Shown here piece after piece: positions 44,981 to 54,797 of a DNA stretch of 64,000 nucleotides. The position numbers and the translations under genes were made by a program. The notes beneath the pieces are model-generated. The model was not told where the DNA came from. It worked only from the letters and a program-made list of their open reading frames with translations, and made no database searches. How positions within the stretch are numbered: the stretch's first letter is position 1; every line of letters begins with the position of its first letter. Where the stretch lies: NCBI GenBank assembly GCA_016350165.1, contig CP066225.1:620001-684000 (forward strand), given 5' to 3'. The DNA is from Planctomycetota bacterium (GTDB lineage: Bacteria > Planctomycetota > Phycisphaerae > Phycisphaerales > Phycisphaeraceae).

Positions 44981-45490
44981 TTAATTATTAATTATGAAAT
45001 ACTTCTTGGTTTCTATATCCCATATATCAATCAACGATTGCCATTCATCCTGATACCAAGTTGTATCTTTTGCTCGACACAATTCAACGACCATGTTGTA
45101 GCAGGCATTCATTTGCGGATCTATTGCATCAATATTTTTTGGATCTCGAATAAACCACATATCACCTCCTGCAGATACTGCTTGCTCTACATTAAATTGG
45201 AAATTAAATTCGATATGTTTCTTCATTTCTTCCGCATGTTCAGGCCATTTCCAACCGGTCGTTTCACCTTCATAAAACACACCATTTAAATCTTCCCACT
45301 GCTTCGGCCATTCGCCTTCATGCTCAATAATATACTCAGCAACAGCACCACCAATCACTTGAGCAGCCATGCGTGCATTGTAATACCGATTTATACCTTC
45401 AATCGCATTGCCTATTGAAATAAAGAAAACTACTGCGTTTACAATTAAGCTCACAACAATAATGAGTATTATCCACCGGAACCATTTCAT
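44981..45490 (-). CDS. Hypothetical protein with N-terminal membrane anchor
   Basis: A 169-residue protein with one N-terminal membrane span (about residues 3-27) and a soluble, Trp- and Glu-rich body outside the membrane. I recognise no family; the layout resembles an anchored sensor or pilin-like protein without a prepilin site. The ATG at 45490 is 12 bases inside a possible TTG start. Only 15 bases separate it from the trpC stop, so it is probably co-transcribed with trpC. Confidence 0.6.
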   Translation of the reverse strand: MKWFRWIILIIVVSLIVNAVVFFISIGNAIEGINRYYNARMAAQVIGGAVAEYIIEHEGEWPKQWEDLNGVFYEGETTGWKWPEHAEEMKKHIEFNFQFNVEQAVSAGGDMWFIRDPKNIDAIDPQMNACYNMVVELCRAKDTTWYQDEWQSLIDIWDIETKKYFIINN

Positions 45491-45505
45491 ACTGCACTTC
45501 AACCT

Positions 45506-47763: not shown

Positions 47764-48288
47764 TTAATCAAGCATTTCTTTCAAAAATAAAATGACCACG
47801 CCAACCACAATACATATCAAAAAATGCCCAATTGTTAACTCTACACCATGTACGCGCATGATTCGAAACTTGATTGCAATCAACCCGCCAATAAACGGCA
47901 CCAATGCAGCACCCAATAAGCCAAGCTTTTTACCCTTATTGACTCCCCAATCATTAATCGAGTCACACGCATTTTCAAACATCGCTTTGAAAATATCTTT
48001 AAAACTCGCACGCCCCATCCGTCCCTTTGCCGCTTCACGACGTGATCTTCCACGCCTTCTTTTTACCGCAGCTTTACGCTCAACCTCATCTTTTTCATCC
48101 AGATAATCCAACAACACAGAATGCTCAGCTTCATTCTTTTTGGCTGTATTTCCAGATATATTATTTTCATCATCCTGCATCGGTACTATCTGTGTCATAC
48201 CACAACACCGGCAACGCACCTTCTTTCCCCCATACTCTGTTGGCACCGTCAAAAATCTTTCACACGCATGACATTCAAAACGCAACAT
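47764..48288 (-). CDS. Zinc-ribbon membrane protein, array member 1 (short)
   Basis: A 174-residue protein. It opens with MLRFECHACERFL and VRCRCCG, the CxxC/CxxC ribbon of its upstream neighbours, then an Asn/Glu-rich linker, a strongly basic patch (KRRRGRSRR), and two membrane spans in the last 60 residues. It lacks the second zinc ribbon and the C-terminal conserved block of the others, so it is a short or divergent member. ATG at 48288 is chosen because it puts the ribbon at the N terminus as in the paralogues; an in-frame start at 48318 is possible. Confidence 0.75.
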   Translation of the reverse strand: MLRFECHACERFLTVPTEYGGKKVRCRCCGMTQIVPMQDDENNISGNTAKKNEAEHSVLLDYLDEKDEVERKAAVKRRRGRSRREAAKGRMGRASFKDIFKAMFENACDSINDWGVNKGKKLGLLGAALVPFIGGLIAIKFRIMRVHGVELTIGHFLICIVVGVVILFLKEMLD

Positions 48289-48302
48289 ATCACACTTCCC
48301 AT

Positions 48303-48332
48303 AAAAAACTGCAGTCATAATCGACTGCAGTT
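48303..48332 (-). terminator. Intrinsic terminator between array members 1 and 2
   Basis: AACTGCAGTC and GACTGCAGTT are perfect 10-base arms with a 5-base loop and a minus-strand T-run. Confidence 0.85.
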
Positions 48333-48361
48333 CTCATCGTCATGTATAAATTATTCACACA

Positions 48362-49321
48362 CTACTCAGTGCCACCTGCCCCAACACGAAACGCTGTAAA
48401 CAGTGCCAAACCAAACCATAGGAAGTCCCACGGTGAAAATGAGTTTGATATACGATCAGAGTATGAGACATCTTCCAACACTGCTGGAACAAAATAATCT
48501 TTAACCGCCTGTCTTAATTCATCCTTACTCATACTATCAAGCTTTGCATCCAACTCTTCTTCAAGCTTTTTTTCAAGTTTTTCTGGCAATTCCAATTCCT
48601 CACCGTTCTCTTCAGCATTTTGGCTTTCTTCCAAAGCTGACATAACGGGCTCACTGAATTCGTTTTCCTCATGCATCATCTGAACAACAGAAACAGTTTG
48701 GGCAACTTCATTATCCTGATACATCTGCATCAATTCGCCTGTTGCTCCCCATTGAAAAATCATCAACTTTCCAATGAGCAGACCCAGCGCAGCTAACCCC
48801 GCAGCATATGTGCCCACAGCGAAACTCTGTGTACCAGCAGCAGTCGCAACCGCCAAACCAACGAGTAGCCCAATGCCCCAAGCAACATAACCAATTTCGT
48901 AATTCGTAACGATCGTAATACCCGCCCAGATCGAGCCACCAATCACAGCAATGATGCCGCCCACAACCAATGCGATCGCCAAACTACCTGCCGCTCTCGC
49001 AGCCTGTTCTTTCGCACCATCCTTCTTAATCTTGGTCTTCAGCTTCTTACCATCAATCAATCCACCACAACTCAAGCAAAGCTTCGCACCCTCACGTACT
49101 TCACTACCACAGTGCCCACACGTCGGGCCCGCCTTCGTAACTGCAGTTGAAGATGCAGCCTTCGAACTTATAGCGTCATTCAGCAGTCCCATATCATCAC
49201 CCACTGCCACCGCTTCTGGCACGCGCTGTATCGCCCCACACTTCTGACACTTCGCACGCTTACCAGCATATTCCTCAGGTACCCTAATGGCCTGACCACA
49301 ATCACAACTAAATTTTATCAT
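48362..49321 (-). CDS. Zinc-ribbon membrane protein, array member 2
   Basis: A 319-residue protein. Order of parts: zinc ribbon 1 (MIKFSCDCGQAIRVP, CQKCG), a linker, zinc ribbon 2 (CGHCG, CLSCGG), a Lys-rich patch, about four closely spaced glycine-rich membrane spans, an acidic Glu/Leu-rich helix region, then a conserved end (AVKDYFVPAVL, SPWDFLWFGLAL) with a last span. The same order returns in the next three genes. ATG at 49321 matches the MIKF start of its neighbour and has AAGGG upstream. Function unknown. Confidence 0.8.
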   Translation of the reverse strand: MIKFSCDCGQAIRVPEEYAGKRAKCQKCGAIQRVPEAVAVGDDMGLLNDAISSKAASSTAVTKAGPTCGHCGSEVREGAKLCLSCGGLIDGKKLKTKIKKDGAKEQAARAAGSLAIALVVGGIIAVIGGSIWAGITIVTNYEIGYVAWGIGLLVGLAVATAAGTQSFAVGTYAAGLAALGLLIGKLMIFQWGATGELMQMYQDNEVAQTVSVVQMMHEENEFSEPVMSALEESQNAEENGEELELPEKLEKKLEEELDAKLDSMSKDELRQAVKDYFVPAVLEDVSYSDRISNSFSPWDFLWFGLALFTAFRVGAGGTE

Positions 49322-49489
49322 GCTTTTGCCCTTAAACTTCTTTCGGAAATGCTGCAGCAACTTGCCCATACTCATGCTGCCATGCACCGCCGGAACTCTC
49401 TAATCAAATGCAAGGCTCACAACATAATCTCAAACCAGTTCCCCAACAAGTTTAATTGCTCAATATTCTCTGTTTTGCATTTTATAGAC

Positions 49490-49518
49490 AAAAAAACGCG
49501 ACATTCTCATGTCGCGTT
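49490..49518 (-). terminator. Intrinsic terminator between array members 2 and 3
   Basis: AACGCGACAT / ATGTCGCGTT is a perfect stem with a 4-base loop and a seven-T minus-strand tail. Confidence 0.88.
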
Positions 49519-49542
49519 CCTCAATTTACCTTGTTTAACAGC

Positions 49543-50574
49543 TTATTCTTTACCACGACCAACACTAAAGGCCGTTGAAACTGCAATTCCCAACCACGCT
49601 AAATCCCAAAACGACATCATCGACTTCAGTCGCTCTTCAAATGGAAGACTCTCAAGCAAAGGATTAACCATGTGCTCTATCAATAATTTTTTCTTCTCAT
49701 CATCAGTCATCTTCTTTGCGCGAGCCTGAACTTCCTTTTCCATCTCTTCAGCAATCGACGCAGGCAATGGGCTTATATCCATATCTTCTTCACCGTATTT
49801 CCTACGATCCAAAACCGTTTGCACGCGTTCACTAAATTCTTTTTTCTCTAGCATCTCAGATTGCGCAAGACTGAACTCTATCCCAGGCATCTTTATAAGC
49901 TCACTAGCAATCAAGCTCGGAACAGCAAACTGCAAAATCATCAACTTGCCAACAACCAAACCAAGCACTGCAAAGCCAGCCGCCCCAATTCCCACTGTCA
50001 TGTGCTGTCCACCAGCTAACGCCACCATCACAACACCAACCAATAACCCCACACCAATCGCCACATACCCAAGCTCATATCCAGTCACATAAACAACACC
50101 CGCCCAGATCGCTCCTGAAATAACAGCAGCAATTCCACCACCAACCATGGCCAAACCCAACCCCCCGATCTGTTTCGGCTCACCCACAACCTTCTTCTCT
50201 TTCTTTTCCTTACGCCTCGCCGCCTTCGCATCTGCTTTAACAAATTCGCCACAGTTCACGCAAAGCTTCGCACTATCTTTCACCGCTTTACCGCAATGCG
50301 GACACTTGATCATTCCATGGCCAATCAACGTCGCGCTCTCACGCTCAATCGTCGCTTCTATTTCTTCTTTGGTTTTCTTATGGTCCGATTTCACCGCTCC
50401 CTCAGGCAGCATCCCCAATTCATACCCTTCGCCATAAGCCTTATTTTCCATCTCCTCACCGCCCGCCGGCACAATATGGGCCTTCCCACATTTCGTACAC
50501 TTCACCTTCTTCCCCGCATACTCCGGCGGAACGCCCAACTTCTGATCACATACATCACAATGGAACTTAATCAT
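49543..50574 (-). CDS. Zinc-ribbon membrane protein, array member 3
   Basis: A 343-residue close paralogue of member 2: ribbon 1 MIKFHCDVCDQKLGVP with CTKCG, ribbon 2 CPHCGKAVK with CVNCGEF, a basic patch (RRKEKKEKK), four spans including GLGLAMVGGGIAAVISGAIW, an acidic soluble stretch and a conserved end (KLLIEHMVNPLLESL, SFWDLAWLGIAV). Its own terminator separates it from member 2, so the two are likely separate transcripts. Function unknown. Confidence 0.82.
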   Translation of the reverse strand: MIKFHCDVCDQKLGVPPEYAGKKVKCTKCGKAHIVPAGGEEMENKAYGEGYELGMLPEGAVKSDHKKTKEEIEATIERESATLIGHGMIKCPHCGKAVKDSAKLCVNCGEFVKADAKAARRKEKKEKKVVGEPKQIGGLGLAMVGGGIAAVISGAIWAGVVYVTGYELGYVAIGVGLLVGVVMVALAGGQHMTVGIGAAGFAVLGLVVGKLMILQFAVPSLIASELIKMPGIEFSLAQSEMLEKKEFSERVQTVLDRRKYGEEDMDISPLPASIAEEMEKEVQARAKKMTDDEKKKLLIEHMVNPLLESLPFEERLKSMMSFWDLAWLGIAVSTAFSVGRGKE

Positions 50575-50779
50575 AAAACCCCCTTCGCTAAGAAGGATTA
50601 ACCAAAATATGCCCTGTACCTTTAAGTAACTTCATACATCGCCACAATCTCAAAAACGTACAAACTCAAAACTGCAAATGATTAAAAGAAATGGCTGTCC
50701 TAAAATAAAATACCACATCCACCACGCCACCGCCATAAAAATTCACCACGACGACCAACCCCAATTAACGCCAATATCC

Positions 50780-51952
50780 CTACTCTTCACGATGCCCAAA
50801 CCCCGCCAACATAAACGCACCCAATGCACCTAACCCAAGCCAAATCAGCTCATACTGCGATACCACTGCCTTGAGTCGCTCCTGACCTGACATTCCCTTC
50901 ACTTTTGGCTCAATCCAGTACTTCTTCACCAAGCCCACCTTCTGCGCATCATTCAGCTTCCTCATTTTCTCCGCAACTTTCTCATATTCACGCTCACGCA
51001 TTTCTAATTCTTGCTTCGCTTCCCAATCCACCGCACGCAACTTCTCACTTGTCTCCCGATCAAACGCCCCTTCTGCAATCAGCGATTTCACCACCGCTGC
51101 CTCCAACATTCGCATCTCTTTCACACCACTTCTTGATCGCATTTCAGACAATCCATAAAACGCGATTCCAACCTTCCCCACACCTATCGCAAGTACCAGC
51201 ATAAGCACAGCCATCGCCCCAAGCATCCAATGTTTCGCACCACCCGCCAGCTTCACCATCACAAAAGCAATCACAAGCCCCATCACAAAAGCGATACCGC
51301 CCAATTCTTTTCCAAAAGCAACCGACACCGCAGCCCAGCACGCACCCCCAACAATAGCTGTCGATGCGCCGCCCAACATCGCGCTTACACCTGCAGCCAA
51401 TCCGCCCACAACACCTTGTCTCCCTTGTACTGCAGCTTGCTCAATCGCATCCATATCCCCAAGCACATGGCCGCAACTCACACACAGTAACGCACCATCT
51501 CTCACAACCTCACCACACTGCGGACACGTCACATCCCCCATGCCAACCCAACCTTCATTTGCCTGTTCACCGACCTCTTCAACCTGCGTAGTCGCAAGCT
51601 GCTGTAAATCCCATCCACTGCCTTCACCTGCTTCACCCTCACTTTCACTTTGCCCCATCACCGCGTCACTCAATCCATCAAACCGCTGTTGCTGTTCAAC
51701 TGTTTCCATATCCCATTCAGAATCAACCTCACCGCGTCCCATCTCAGCCTGAATGCGTTCCTGTTCCTTTTGCGCGCGTTCTAATCGTTCCTCTTCACGA
51801 CGCTTTTTTTCAAGCGTTTTTTCGTCCGTCGCCCCATCATCTTCTTGAACGTTCAATGCCTTCCCACAACCTCTGCACTTCACAACCTGCCCGATCAATG
51901 CTTCAGGAATATGCGATAAACGTTCACATTTTTCACATCGAACTTCGATCAT
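50780..51952 (-). CDS. Zinc-ribbon membrane protein, array member 4
   Basis: A 390-residue paralogue. Ribbon 1 is MIEVRCEKCERLSHIP with CRGCG. A longer charged coiled-coil linker (EKKRREEERLERAQKEQER) comes before ribbon 2 (CPQCGEVVRDGALLCVSCG), then glycine-rich spans, a Glu/Arg-rich helix and the family end (GLVKKYWIEPKVKGM, YELIWLGLGALG). It is 38 bases downstream of member 5, so those two are probably co-transcribed. Confidence 0.8.
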   Translation of the reverse strand: MIEVRCEKCERLSHIPEALIGQVVKCRGCGKALNVQEDDGATDEKTLEKKRREEERLERAQKEQERIQAEMGRGEVDSEWDMETVEQQQRFDGLSDAVMGQSESEGEAGEGSGWDLQQLATTQVEEVGEQANEGWVGMGDVTCPQCGEVVRDGALLCVSCGHVLGDMDAIEQAAVQGRQGVVGGLAAGVSAMLGGASTAIVGGACWAAVSVAFGKELGGIAFVMGLVIAFVMVKLAGGAKHWMLGAMAVLMLVLAIGVGKVGIAFYGLSEMRSRSGVKEMRMLEAAVVKSLIAEGAFDRETSEKLRAVDWEAKQELEMREREYEKVAEKMRKLNDAQKVGLVKKYWIEPKVKGMSGQERLKAVVSQYELIWLGLGALGAFMLAGFGHREE

Positions 51953-51990
51953 GTTCGCCTCTCAGGATTCTATCAATCGATTAGACTTCA

Positions 51991-53307
51991 CTACGCTGTA
52001 CGAGCAAGTACGCCTCCACAACCCAAACCAGCAATCACATAAGCACAACCAACTGCCAGCAATAACCACACAAAATCCCACACCCCAATCACCTGCATCA
52101 CATCAGACCAATACCCATGCCCAACACGCCCCGTCGCTTCACTACGTACCCAATGTTCTTTCACCACTTCAAGCCGCCCAGCTTCATCAAGACCAGCCGC
52201 TGTTTCTCTAATCTTTGAATAGAGTTCATCGGAAATCGAGCCTTCAAGCCCCGCGCCCTCTTCAAGATTATCCAATTGCTCATATTCCTCAAGCTTCATC
52301 TGCCCTTCATTCACCATCTGCATGAGCACCGCTGACTCAACCTGCATCTCCGTCACCCCACCTTCGACCACTCCCTGCAATATCCGATCCACCGTTGATT
52401 CAACACCCAACACGCCCACGCTCGCTTTACCTGCCAACATACTCAACACCACAACCACCACTGCTGTCACACCCAAATCGTTACTCGATTCCTGTGACAT
52501 CGCCCACATTACACCAGCAACCAAAACACTGATCGCAACAATCACAACCCCTGCCACATGTCCTGTCATCGATGCATACACAGCCCAACCTACAGCAGCC
52601 AACACACCAACACTCAATCCTCCCATCAAAGGCCACATCCCCAATTGCTGACGCTCTTTTCGTTTCTTTAACCACTCATCCCACCATGTACGCTTCTTCA
52701 TCTGCTCATTCAGTGGTACCCCCTTGCCTTTCTCCTCATCACGCTTCTCACGCATCCGCTCAACCACACCCTCCTGCTCACCAACACCCTCCTGCTCACG
52801 GATCGCCGCAATCTCTTCCTCACTCAACTCCCCAACATCCGAGATCCAATCCTCACCCTCAACAGCCTGCACGTTCACAACACGCTGTCCACTTTCACCC
52901 GTTTCACCCTGCCCCTTCTCAGTACCAACCTCACCCATCACCTGCTGCCGCATCTCCGCCAGCCGTGCAGCATGCAGCTGTCTTCTGGCTTCAAGTTCCC
53001 TCACATCCCACATCCCCGTCTCACCACTACCATCCTCCCGGTCTTCCTTCAGCTTCACCACCGTCTCACACAACACATCTTCATTTTCCGACCACTCATG
53101 CACACTCTTCGGCTGACCCGCCAGCAACAACTCAGGCCTCTCCCCACTATCCACACGCTCCATCCATGCCACGCTCATCGTCACGCCATACTGCCCCCCC
53201 ACAACCTTCACTTCATCCCAGCAATGAACGCACTTAACCACCTGACCTAAAAACATGTCAGGTAGCTCCATCCCCGCTCCGCAATGCTCACACATAATCT
53301 TGATCAT
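51991..53307 (-). CDS. Zinc-ribbon membrane protein, array member 5
   Basis: A 438-residue divergent paralogue with one N-terminal ribbon (MIKIMCEHCGAGMELP, CVHCWDEV), a long acidic linker of about 180 residues, a basic Trp-rich patch (RTWWDEWLKKRKERQQ) in the place of ribbon 2, several spans, an acidic helix region and the shared end (VVKEHWVRSEATG, VWDFVWLLLAVG). The ATG at 53307 has GAGGGTGACG before it; a GTG two codons earlier is also open. It starts the array and lies 190 bases upstream, on the same strand, of nothing else but after nuoH. Confidence 0.78.
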   Translation of the reverse strand: MIKIMCEHCGAGMELPDMFLGQVVKCVHCWDEVKVVGGQYGVTMSVAWMERVDSGERPELLLAGQPKSVHEWSENEDVLCETVVKLKEDREDGSGETGMWDVRELEARRQLHAARLAEMRQQVMGEVGTEKGQGETGESGQRVVNVQAVEGEDWISDVGELSEEEIAAIREQEGVGEQEGVVERMREKRDEEKGKGVPLNEQMKKRTWWDEWLKKRKERQQLGMWPLMGGLSVGVLAAVGWAVYASMTGHVAGVVIVAISVLVAGVMWAMSQESSNDLGVTAVVVVVLSMLAGKASVGVLGVESTVDRILQGVVEGGVTEMQVESAVLMQMVNEGQMKLEEYEQLDNLEEGAGLEGSISDELYSKIRETAAGLDEAGRLEVVKEHWVRSEATGRVGHGYWSDVMQVIGVWDFVWLLLAVGCAYVIAGLGCGGVLARTA

Positions 53308-53427
53308 CGTCACCCTCGAAATTCACACTTCTTACGTTCATGCAGCCCCACCCCACATAAAAAACTTCACCACCCATAAATCCCACGTACGCCAATTATA
53401 CAACACATTTACAAACCCCACCCAATA

Positions 53428-53451
53428 AAAAACCCCGCTTATGCGGGGCTT
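53428..53451 (-). terminator. Intrinsic terminator of nuoH
   Basis: CCCCGC-TTAT-GCGGGG stem followed on the minus strand by a T-run, about 50 bases after the nuoH stop. Confidence 0.88.
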
Positions 53452-53498: not shown

Positions 53499-54797
53499 TC
53501 AGGATGCTTCAGGCAACGGGCTGAATCGTGAACCCTTCAAAGGCAAACGCTCATTCGAAGTGTCCTTAGGCAGATACATGCCAGCCAATGCTGCAATCAC
53601 TGCCATCACAATATTCATAATGCCATACCACCACCAGTTACGGAAGCCGAAGTACAACATGAAGCTTGTGACAAGCATCGTTGCGATCGTCAACGGTATC
53701 ATGCCCCGCCAAGCCATTCTCATCAACTGGTCAAATCTCAGTCGTGGCAGCGTCCATCTCACCCACATCATCACCGCAATGATGACAAACACCTTGCCAG
53801 CAAATACGCCGAACTTCACAAACGCAAGCAATACGCCCAGCATCCAGTTATCCGCCACATAATCAGGCAGCACCTTGAAGAACGGCAACACATCCCAGCC
53901 TCCCAAGAACAACAGTGCAAAGAACGCACTTGCTGTAATCATGTTCATATACTCACCCAGGAAGAACAGCGCCCACTTCATCGAACCATACTCAGTATGG
54001 AAGCCGCCAACCAACTCCTGCTCAGCCTCAGCCAAGTCAAACGGAGCACGGTTACATTCCGCCAGTGTGCAGACAAAAAACAGAATCGCCAGCAACGGGT
54101 GCATGAAAATGCCCCATGTATTGCCAGTTAAATCCAAACCAAATACACCATTCTCACCAATCTGAGCAGCAGCGATATCCGTCGTCATCGTCGCTTGGAA
54201 CATCATGATCATCACCAGCACACAAATGCCCTGAGGAATCTCATAGCTCAACATCTGGGCTGCAGCACGAACACCGCCCAAGAATGAATATTTGTTATTC
54301 GATGCATAAGAACCGACCACAACCCCGTAAACAGCCAGCGAACTCACCGCCAGAATGTAAACAACACCAATATTCACTGGTGCAGCAGTACCAAACACGA
54401 TCTGCTTGGCTGATGTACCCCAGCCAAACCAGTCAATCTCTGGAATCGCAATCAGGCCCGCCCAAGGAATCACAGCCCAGCTCAAAGTTGCTGTCAGCAT
54501 CACCATCGCAGGTGCCAACCAGAACAACCACTTATCCACACGGTTCGGCGTAAAGTCTTCTTTCAACAACAACTTCAGACCATCCGCCAACGCCTGACCA
54601 AAACCCATCATATGGATCTTCTCAGGCAAAAAGCCAAAACCAAGGTTCGTACGGTTCGGCCCAATTCGGTCCTGAATCCACGATGCCATCTTTCTTTCTA
54701 AAAAGATCAGATAAGCACACGCACCCAACGCAACGTTGAACACAACCGTGATCACCAGGAAACTTACGATAAACTGTGGCAGCCAGTCTAAATTCAT
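53499..54797 (-). CDS. nuoH: NADH-quinone oxidoreductase subunit H
   Basis: A 432-residue multi-span complex I subunit that forms part of the quinone chamber and links the hydrophilic arm to the proton pumps. It shows YLIFLERKMASWIQDRIGPN, the LADGLKLLLKED motif, CTLAECNRAPFDLAEAEQEL and TLPRLRFDQLM. The C-terminal extension of about 40 residues (KDTSNERLPLKG) is slightly longer than usual. It lies about 34 kb from nuoDEF and has no other nuo gene next to it. Confidence 0.96.
   Translation of the reverse strand: MNLDWLPQFIVSFLVITVVFNVALGACAYLIFLERKMASWIQDRIGPNRTNLGFGFLPEKIHMMGFGQALADGLKLLLKEDFTPNRVDKWLFWLAPAMVMLTATLSWAVIPWAGLIAIPEIDWFGWGTSAKQIVFGTAAPVNIGVVYILAVSSLAVYGVVVGSYASNNKYSFLGGVRAAAQMLSYEIPQGICVLVMIMMFQATMTTDIAAAQIGENGVFGLDLTGNTWGIFMHPLLAILFFVCTLAECNRAPFDLAEAEQELVGGFHTEYGSMKWALFFLGEYMNMITASAFFALLFLGGWDVLPFFKVLPDYVADNWMLGVLLAFVKFGVFAGKVFVIIAVMMWVRWTLPRLRFDQLMRMAWRGMIPLTIATMLVTSFMLYFGFRNWWWYGIMNIVMAVIAALAGMYLPKDTSNERLPLKGSRFSPLPEAS

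Follow-up and report, generated by a model that had tools for sequence, protein, structure and literature searches.

The described protein that comes closest to the genes considered here is ZitP of Caulobacter, in which a zinc_ribbon_5 domain is followed by one transmembrane helix (TM) and a periplasmic DUF3426 domain, as PMC5182063 and PMC5182065 present it. According to the structural part of PMC5182065, its ribbon, solved by nuclear magnetic resonance, has the order strand-strand-helix-strand-strand, and in the accounts of both reports the cytosolic ribbon binds the cytosolic scaffold PopZ and the outer part recruits CpaM (PMC5182063, PMC5182065). We have analysed a tandem array of five ribbon genes, M1 to M5, which fill positions 47764-53307 on the minus strand of a 64,000-nucleotide stretch (the window: positions 620,001 to 684,000 of contig CP066225.1) from a Poriferisphaera species of the Phycisphaeraceae, Planctomycetota. 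The array has arisen by expansion, within the genus, of a membrane family that is widespread and apparently unmodelled. This family is defined here by a four-helix membrane domain common to M2-M5, which has no established name and is called the core below.

Like ZitP, the array proteins have an N-terminal four-cysteine ribbon, with the same order of strands and helix predicted in M3 and M5, followed by membrane and then by an outside part. Unlike ZitP, they have four likely membrane helices and not one, often a second ribbon, and the homology to it that could be seen is limited to a generic ribbon. Membership of the ZitP family was rejected on three counts: DUF3426 is absent from the Pfam matches of M1-M5 at E up to 1, the spans are four, and the PopZ-binding tryptophan W35, four residues after the last cysteine, is replaced by Q, Q, H, L and V in M1-M5, respectively, as counted from the last cysteine and not by structure. 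The model ribbon superposes poorly on that of ZitP (Z 4.0, root-mean-square deviation, rmsd, 5.5 over 46). As an analogy, ZitP is a useful functional precedent and possibly a model of ribbon docking.

Other ribbon proteins have been compared in the same manner. The first model ribbon superposes on the amino-group carrier LysW (Z 4.0, rmsd 1.8 over 39 residues), but the array ribbon is fused to a membrane protein, and membership of LysW/ArgW was rejected at 14.9-19 bits against NCBIfam cut-offs of 53.2 and 75. TcaA is called a zinc ribbon protein in the text of PMC10611510, and the second-ribbon region of M3 is weakly similar to membrane zinc-ribbon proteins of this type; the NCBIfam match, confined to residues 88-127, reaches 18.9 bits against a cut-off of 550, by which membership was dismissed. 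The ribbon of AgmX (adventurous gliding protein X, PDB 7zok) is matched by the ribbon profile at 1-36 with E 0.02, a comparison limited to the ribbon.

For the core itself, no Pfam or NCBIfam model was found, the matches being to the ribbons or weak and scattered. A PDB sequence search with the core gave a best E of 0.58, and Foldseek of the models against PDB and viral models gave none at E ≤ 0.001. In VIA-align the best Z was 7.2, to designed helical repeats; helical bundles can score this high by chance. The core family was not recognised in the published literature, searched at the level of listings. Thus no named family with a role has been found, and the expectation of the preliminary description in this respect has survived.

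The phosphate transporter family PHO4 (PF01384) is matched at E ≤ 0.01 in 7 of 45 relatives (best 2.5e-6). The four relatives seen row by row score 15.3-21.3 bits, below the cut-off of 33.7; these matches always start at TM1, two ending around TM2-TM3 and two running on. On these sub-threshold scores PHO4 homology of the core was rejected, and PHO4 is not listed for M1-M5 in the Pfam scan. Glycine-zipper matches occur in 2 of 16 cases.

Homology and anatomy of the array proteins

Two core profiles have been used, one built without any row of this genus and the other including the array itself. In a set of 11 proteins, the genus-free profile matches M2 (E 9.9e-34), M3 (1.1e-30), M4 (1.5e-10) and M5 (1.6e-10). 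In BLASTP, M2 and M3 are linked over their full length, and M4 is linked to M3 (6.5e-13) and M5 to M4 (2.5e-10) in the membrane half. These matches indicate that the homology of M2-M5 beyond the ribbon is not due to chance. The C-terminal homology proposed earlier is thus real, though the K.Y/W..P....WDF.W.G block by which it had been described is degenerate in M3 and M5.

On the other hand, with the genus-free profile and the same 11 proteins M1 has an E of only 0.53, and two further ribbon-plus-membrane genes of the window, at 7.9 kb (P0006) and 22.9 kb (P0007), have 0.11 and 11; the array-including profile gives 0.037, 0.025 and 11, respectively. Since the membrane tail of M1 does no better than shuffles (its score is reached by 192 and 195 of 1000 block-shuffled copies with the two profiles), M1 is related through the ribbon only and not as a core paralogue, and the shuffle test also ruled it out as a truncated core copy. 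Its membrane part is covered by no match in 41 genomes (longest 1-92 of 173). Of the five paralogues of the preliminary description, M2-M5 therefore stand and M1 does not. The genes at 7.9 and 22.9 kb do exist, but both are without the core and were ruled out as array members.

All five open reading frames (ORFs) lie where they had been placed, on the minus strand. M1 (47764..48288, 174 aa, ATG at 48288) has a ribbon at about residues 2-36 and a hydrophobic tail with two likely membrane helices. M2 (48362..49321, 319 aa), M3 (49543..50574, 343 aa) and M4 (50780..51952, 390 aa) each have two ribbons and the core, while M5 (51991..53307, 438 aa) has one ribbon, a long low-confidence linker and the core. 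The core-profile matches of M2 and M4 cover residues 116-318 (48368..48976) and 187-389 (50786..51394), respectively.

The helices, folds and transcription breaks given here are predictions by program. The models of M3 (pLDDT, the predicted local distance difference test, 84.9; pTM, the predicted template modelling score, 0.59) and of the divergent member M5 (73.8 and 0.48) show the same order of a ribbon, three helices of which the third is long, soluble helices and a last helix. In the M3 core (49555..50169) these are TM1 at 136-164, TM2 at 170-187, TM3 at 192-227, five soluble helices within 232-319 and TM4 at 322-340, where the assignment of which helices cross the membrane is inferred. 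In the M5 core (52015..52644) they are TM1 at 224-248, TM2 at 253-271, TM3 at 276-316, soluble helices, and TM4 at 409-437.

Conservation in 86 aligned rows is concentrated in the helices, with W157 kept in 83, G180 in 81, G176 in 80, K210 in 76, D324 in 75 and E167 in 73 of them; E167 is absent from M5, and the position of D324 is E in M4. The 24 residues preceding TM1 of M3, the only protein measured for this, have 10 K+R against 4 D+E. Of the 69 rows measured, 67 have a net acidic region between TM3 and TM4, the 17 rows of the 86 without the GK motif having been left out of the count. From these two charge patterns the ribbon would lie inside and the acidic helices outside, and E167, K210 and D324 should, from the direction of the helices, point toward the outer side.

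The first ribbon can be aligned in all five members with C, C, P, G, C, C invariant, the first knuckle of M2 being CxC. In the M3 and M5 models it has strands at 2-5 and 12-15, a short helix, and strands at 23-25 and 32-34. The second ribbon of M2-M4 is also present: Zn_ribbon_3 exceeds its Pfam cut-off of 27 in M3 (27.7 bits) and M4 (27.5), and M2 has a sub-threshold match to Zn_Ribbon_1 (21.9 against 25 bits). Both ribbons had been reported in the preliminary description, and they presumably bind zinc. Ribbon-profile matches at E ≤ 0.01 number 10 in this genome, 8 in Poriferisphaera corsica, and 5, 7 and 8 in three genomes of the bacterial family, and the profile also matches RPA12 (E 1.3e-4), eS27, AgmX and LysW. 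With several matches per genome, the shared ribbon behaves as a promiscuous module.

Distribution of the core and its partner modules

Among 294 planctomycete genomes the core profile matches 57 (37 of the 155 with high completeness), of which five contributed rows to it. A scan of named genomes gave 51 loci, of which 40 have planctomycete titles and 6 are Gemmatimonadota, with one each from Nitrospinaceae, Omnitrophota, Myxococcales, a metagenome-assembled genome (MAG) labelled Alcanivorax, and an unnamed bacterium. Since nearly all the loci come from MAGs, the single odd taxon labels may reflect errors of binning. The core profile matches 53 ORFs, some of them seed proteins, in 50 of the 51 loci. 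A first scan of genome contigs with M3 alone had confirmed 0 of 442 stretches. Overall, the matches indicate that the core is spread over Planctomycetota and loci labelled with five other phylum-level groups, and the idea of a lineage-specific system has to be given up. A domain present in about one in five sampled planctomycete genomes, and in loci labelled with other phyla, is without a Pfam or NCBIfam model, and its profile could annotate proteins that are now likely named 'hypothetical' or 'zinc ribbon'.

What precedes the core is variable. Of 86 rows, 31 have at least two CxC/CxxC pairs before it, including 7 from the array itself. The ribbon state changes at least 10 times on the tree, from which two rows with a short core and the G025 and G034 proteins were left out. 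The ribbon counts are rough, as start codons were picked mechanically. On these two observations, ribbon and core look interchangeable. By eye, the N-terminal modules are double ribbons as in M3 (for example in L059, L041 and L075), finger-like CxxC pairs (L083, L108), a short helical domain (L066, L087), or nothing. By eye, the outer domain also varies in length among the relatives, and its helical unit seems repeated.

The short helical domain is UBA-like by eye and precedes the core in L066, L079, L087, L090, L092 and L101, labelled Gemmatimonadota, Nitrospinaceae, Myxococcales and others.

Tandem cores are found in four other lineages. OFTM373 has three copies, two of which overlap while the third lies about 1.5 kb off, and L077, L007 and L048 have two each. 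At L070:5974-7280 two ribbonless core genes overlap by four bases, which suggests translational coupling of tandem copies. When the neighbours were clustered, no family recurred in more than 4 of 50 loci, and no general partner gene was found. Four of the 50 loci (L058, L059, L093 and L098) have an ORF of histidine-kinase type at a distance of up to 6 kb; for L098 the identification is by Pfam.

A mobile or viral origin was rejected, since no relative was confirmed in the plasmids, the phages or the viral contigs searched (0 of 4 candidate stretches in the last) and the chromosomal synteny is conserved. PHROGs matches of M3 and M4 fall in the second-ribbon region, to families of unassigned function (best E 1.5e-6). 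When M1-M5 were compared with the PADLOC defence models, the single match was that of the second M3 ribbon to a model of a homing endonuclease (E 0.0054), and anti-phage defence was rejected on this result.

Locus history and transcription units

The array lies between nuoH (PF00146, NADHdh; 53499..54797, minus strand), its upstream neighbour, and a GNAT acetyltransferase gene (PF00583; 47190..47678, plus strand) downstream. The order lepB-nuoH-[core]-GNAT-phosphoesterase-trpC-mbl is kept in the Phycisphaeraceae OFTM326 and OFTM374, with flanking proteins of 40-69% identity and one core gene each, without and with ribbons, respectively. The array sits at an old locus of the family. In this slot there is one copy in OFTM326 and OFTM374, three in P. 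corsica, and four plus M1 here.

The three P. corsica genes are orthologues of M3, M4 and M5, that of M4 being without the second ribbon. A 25-row tree pairs M3 with M3 (100/97), M4 with M4 (98/95) and M5 with M5 (85/78) between the two species, and joins M4 with M5 (100/99) and M2 with the M3 pair (94/84). From this pairing, M3, M4 and M5 most likely predate the species split. M2 may have been lost in P. corsica or may be a faster, later copy: M2 and M3 of the window as sisters are compatible with the data (p-AU, from the approximately unbiased test, 0.0715). One clade of all seven array rows (p-AU 0.37) and one clade of the ten nuoH-locus rows (0.107) are not rejected either.

Between the two species, M3 has 60% identity, M4 43% and M5 44%, and the ratios of non-synonymous to synonymous differences (pN/pS) are 0.38, 0.58 and 0.56, respectively. 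The flanking genes have 0.20 (nuoH), 0.20 (GNAT), 0.27 (phosphoesterase), 0.10 (trpC), 0.09 (mbl) and 0.41 (lepB); because synonymous sites are near saturation, these values are only comparative. M4 and M5 are above all six flanking genes, while M3 is inside their range owing to lepB. Together with the copy numbers, this bears out the repeated duplication with divergence that had been proposed.

Among 51 genomes of the bacterial family, nuoH is found in 50 and the core in 14; in the present genome the core matches listed are the four array members only. We have read 30 nuoH loci from the 50 genomes with a match, and one of these loci ended at nuoH. A same-strand gene stands behind nuoH in 12 of the 30, namely 6 core genes, 5 double-ribbon genes without a core match and 1 single-ribbon gene. 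It thus seems that the membrane part was exchanged under the same ribbon, or the reverse.

The five double-ribbon genes (L115, L119, L122, L127 and L128) have a different, shorter membrane part and hold the nuoH-downstream slot of the Poriferisphaera array. In G024, a gene 3' of nuoH (L134:1432-2073) has spans that are core-like by eye and its ribbon at the C-terminus instead of the N-terminus; the core profile does not match it.

Transcription breaks were predicted by our own search for hairpins followed by T runs, made with no shuffle control. It was preferred because another terminator scan gave the nuoH hairpin on the plus strand only and did not list those after M3 and M2. On the minus strand, intrinsic terminators are predicted after nuoH (53433..53448, CCCCGC-ATAA-GCGGGG then T6), after M3 (49497..49516) and after M2 (48309..48330), and P. 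corsica has the first two at matching positions. A -10-like element, TGTATAATTGGC (53391..53402, minus strand), with no good -35 seen, lies between the nuoH terminator and M5; the window contains no second match, and the single match of the P. corsica locus occupies the equivalent position. Within M4 of each species the hairpin search reports one further hairpin (51331-51291 here), taken for chance. According to these predictions, the likely units are M5-M4-M3, M2 and M1, none of them with nuoH. Since the predicted terminators split the array, it is probably not one operon; a five-gene operon and a nuoH-array operon were set aside on the predicted terminators only. The view of the five genes as one system is therefore not supported, as the array falls into three predicted units and M1 is without the core.

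Possible functions of the array proteins

The anatomy and history of the array are well supported by the homology, architecture, distribution and locus history, whereas on function we can offer a proposal. We consider, with a probability of roughly 0.4, that the array proteins form a membrane docking platform. Each of M2-M5 would be a modular adaptor, with one or two cytosolic ribbons on a flexible linker and then the core, whose four helices have glycine-rich spans and whose acidic helical domain between helices 3 and 4 would be outside. Through its ribbons each adaptor may capture a cytosolic protein and bring it to the membrane, the core may pack into small oligomers and fix the position, and the outer helical domain may contact an envelope partner. 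Duplication with change of linkers and ribbons could then give several adaptors with different clients. Clients, oligomers and the docking role are all conjectural at this stage. The scaffolding role suggested in the preliminary description has, by analogy, a structural precedent in ZitP. Points in favour of the proposal are the helix order that the M3 and M5 models share, the ZitP-like order of the ribbon, the charge patterns, the changing modules before the core and the conservation in the helices.

Several points weigh against this proposal. Fewer than two cysteine pairs precede the core in 55 of 86 rows, so ribbon docking cannot be the core's own function. The ten changes of ribbon state were counted on a quick tree with many weak branches, and the topology follows from charge bias alone. 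Where ZitP has its PopZ-binding tryptophan, by counting from the last cysteine, the ribbons have other residues. The conserved E167, K210 and D324 would also fit a channel or an ion-coupled role, and the docking partner is so far hypothetical.

A doubtful alternative to docking is that the genes are weakly constrained duplicates, which drift has retained at a locus prone to duplication and which have little function of their own. The raised pN/pS of M4 and M5, the copy numbers of 1, 3 and 4+1 among relatives and the unmatched membrane part of M1 would agree with it, and M1, and partly M4 and M5, are possibly such copies. But all copies are open with the four first-ribbon cysteines kept, M2-M5 keep the core, P. 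corsica has an orthologue for each of M3, M4 and M5, and matching predicted terminators flank the three-gene unit in both species. It is rather unlikely that the proteins are a small channel, a transporter or a membrane-tension sensor, in which the glycine-rich helices and E/K/D would form a pathway gated by ribbons that sense zinc or redox: the charged residues in or at the ends of the predicted helices are indeed conserved, and the PHO4 similarity and glycine-zipper matches point the same way, yet PHO4 stays below its cut-off in the four rows seen one by one, M5 is without the E, and M4 has E for D.

A sensing system, with the outer acidic helical domain binding an envelope ligand and relaying its state via the core to ribbon-bound regulators, would suit the variable, seemingly repeated outer domain and the several different cytosolic modules before one core. 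The histidine-kinase-type neighbours lend it slight support, although two of the four loci represent one syntenic locus, genes for histidine kinases are common, and none of the neighbour families exceeds 4 of 50 loci; we regard this as quite unlikely. Finally, the core gene stands behind the only nuoH found, and could encode an accessory factor of respiratory complex I that helps NuoH insertion or assembly. The conserved lepB-nuoH-[core]-GNAT order, the core or ribbon genes behind nuoH in 12 of 30 loci, and the distance of about 290 kb between nuoH and the nuoLMN cluster (382-388 kb) here speak for it. This is nevertheless improbable, because a predicted terminator and a separate promoter-like element lie between nuoH and M5 in both Poriferisphaera species, nuoH far outnumbers the core among the 51 genomes, and in tblastn of the other loci nuoH turns up only next to family cores (with flanks of 1.5 kb searched for genome-search loci and of 6 kb for named loci). 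The link to nuoH is one of position only. In P. corsica, too, nuoH and nuoLMN are separate.

Beyond the docking proposal for the array, the core might be an undescribed general transmembrane platform, which we put forward as a speculation of low probability. It would be a glycine-packed bundle with a conserved E/K/D charge network on its outer side. In evolution it would have acquired zinc ribbons, small helical domains or LIM/B-box-like fingers on the cytosolic side and helical repeats on the outer side, and tandem duplication would yield docking or sensing sets. With two cultured species, and with single-copy relatives in the family, Poriferisphaera is a good place to study the role of the core.

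Three other loci deserve mention. At 44981-45502 of the window, between mbl and trpC, is a 173-aa protein with one likely span and no clear Pfam family; no ORF of at least 140 aa is listed in the corresponding P. corsica gap. At about 2.83 Mb of this genome (L022:1235-2101) there is a ribbon protein with a C-terminal segment that is PH-like by eye, and P. corsica has a ribbon ORF of similar length at 171.8 kb. At about 799.9-803.4 kb (L023:1889-5417), the core profile does not match four tandem plus-strand genes that are alike by eye, each combining a single CxxC ribbon with a membrane part of several spans.

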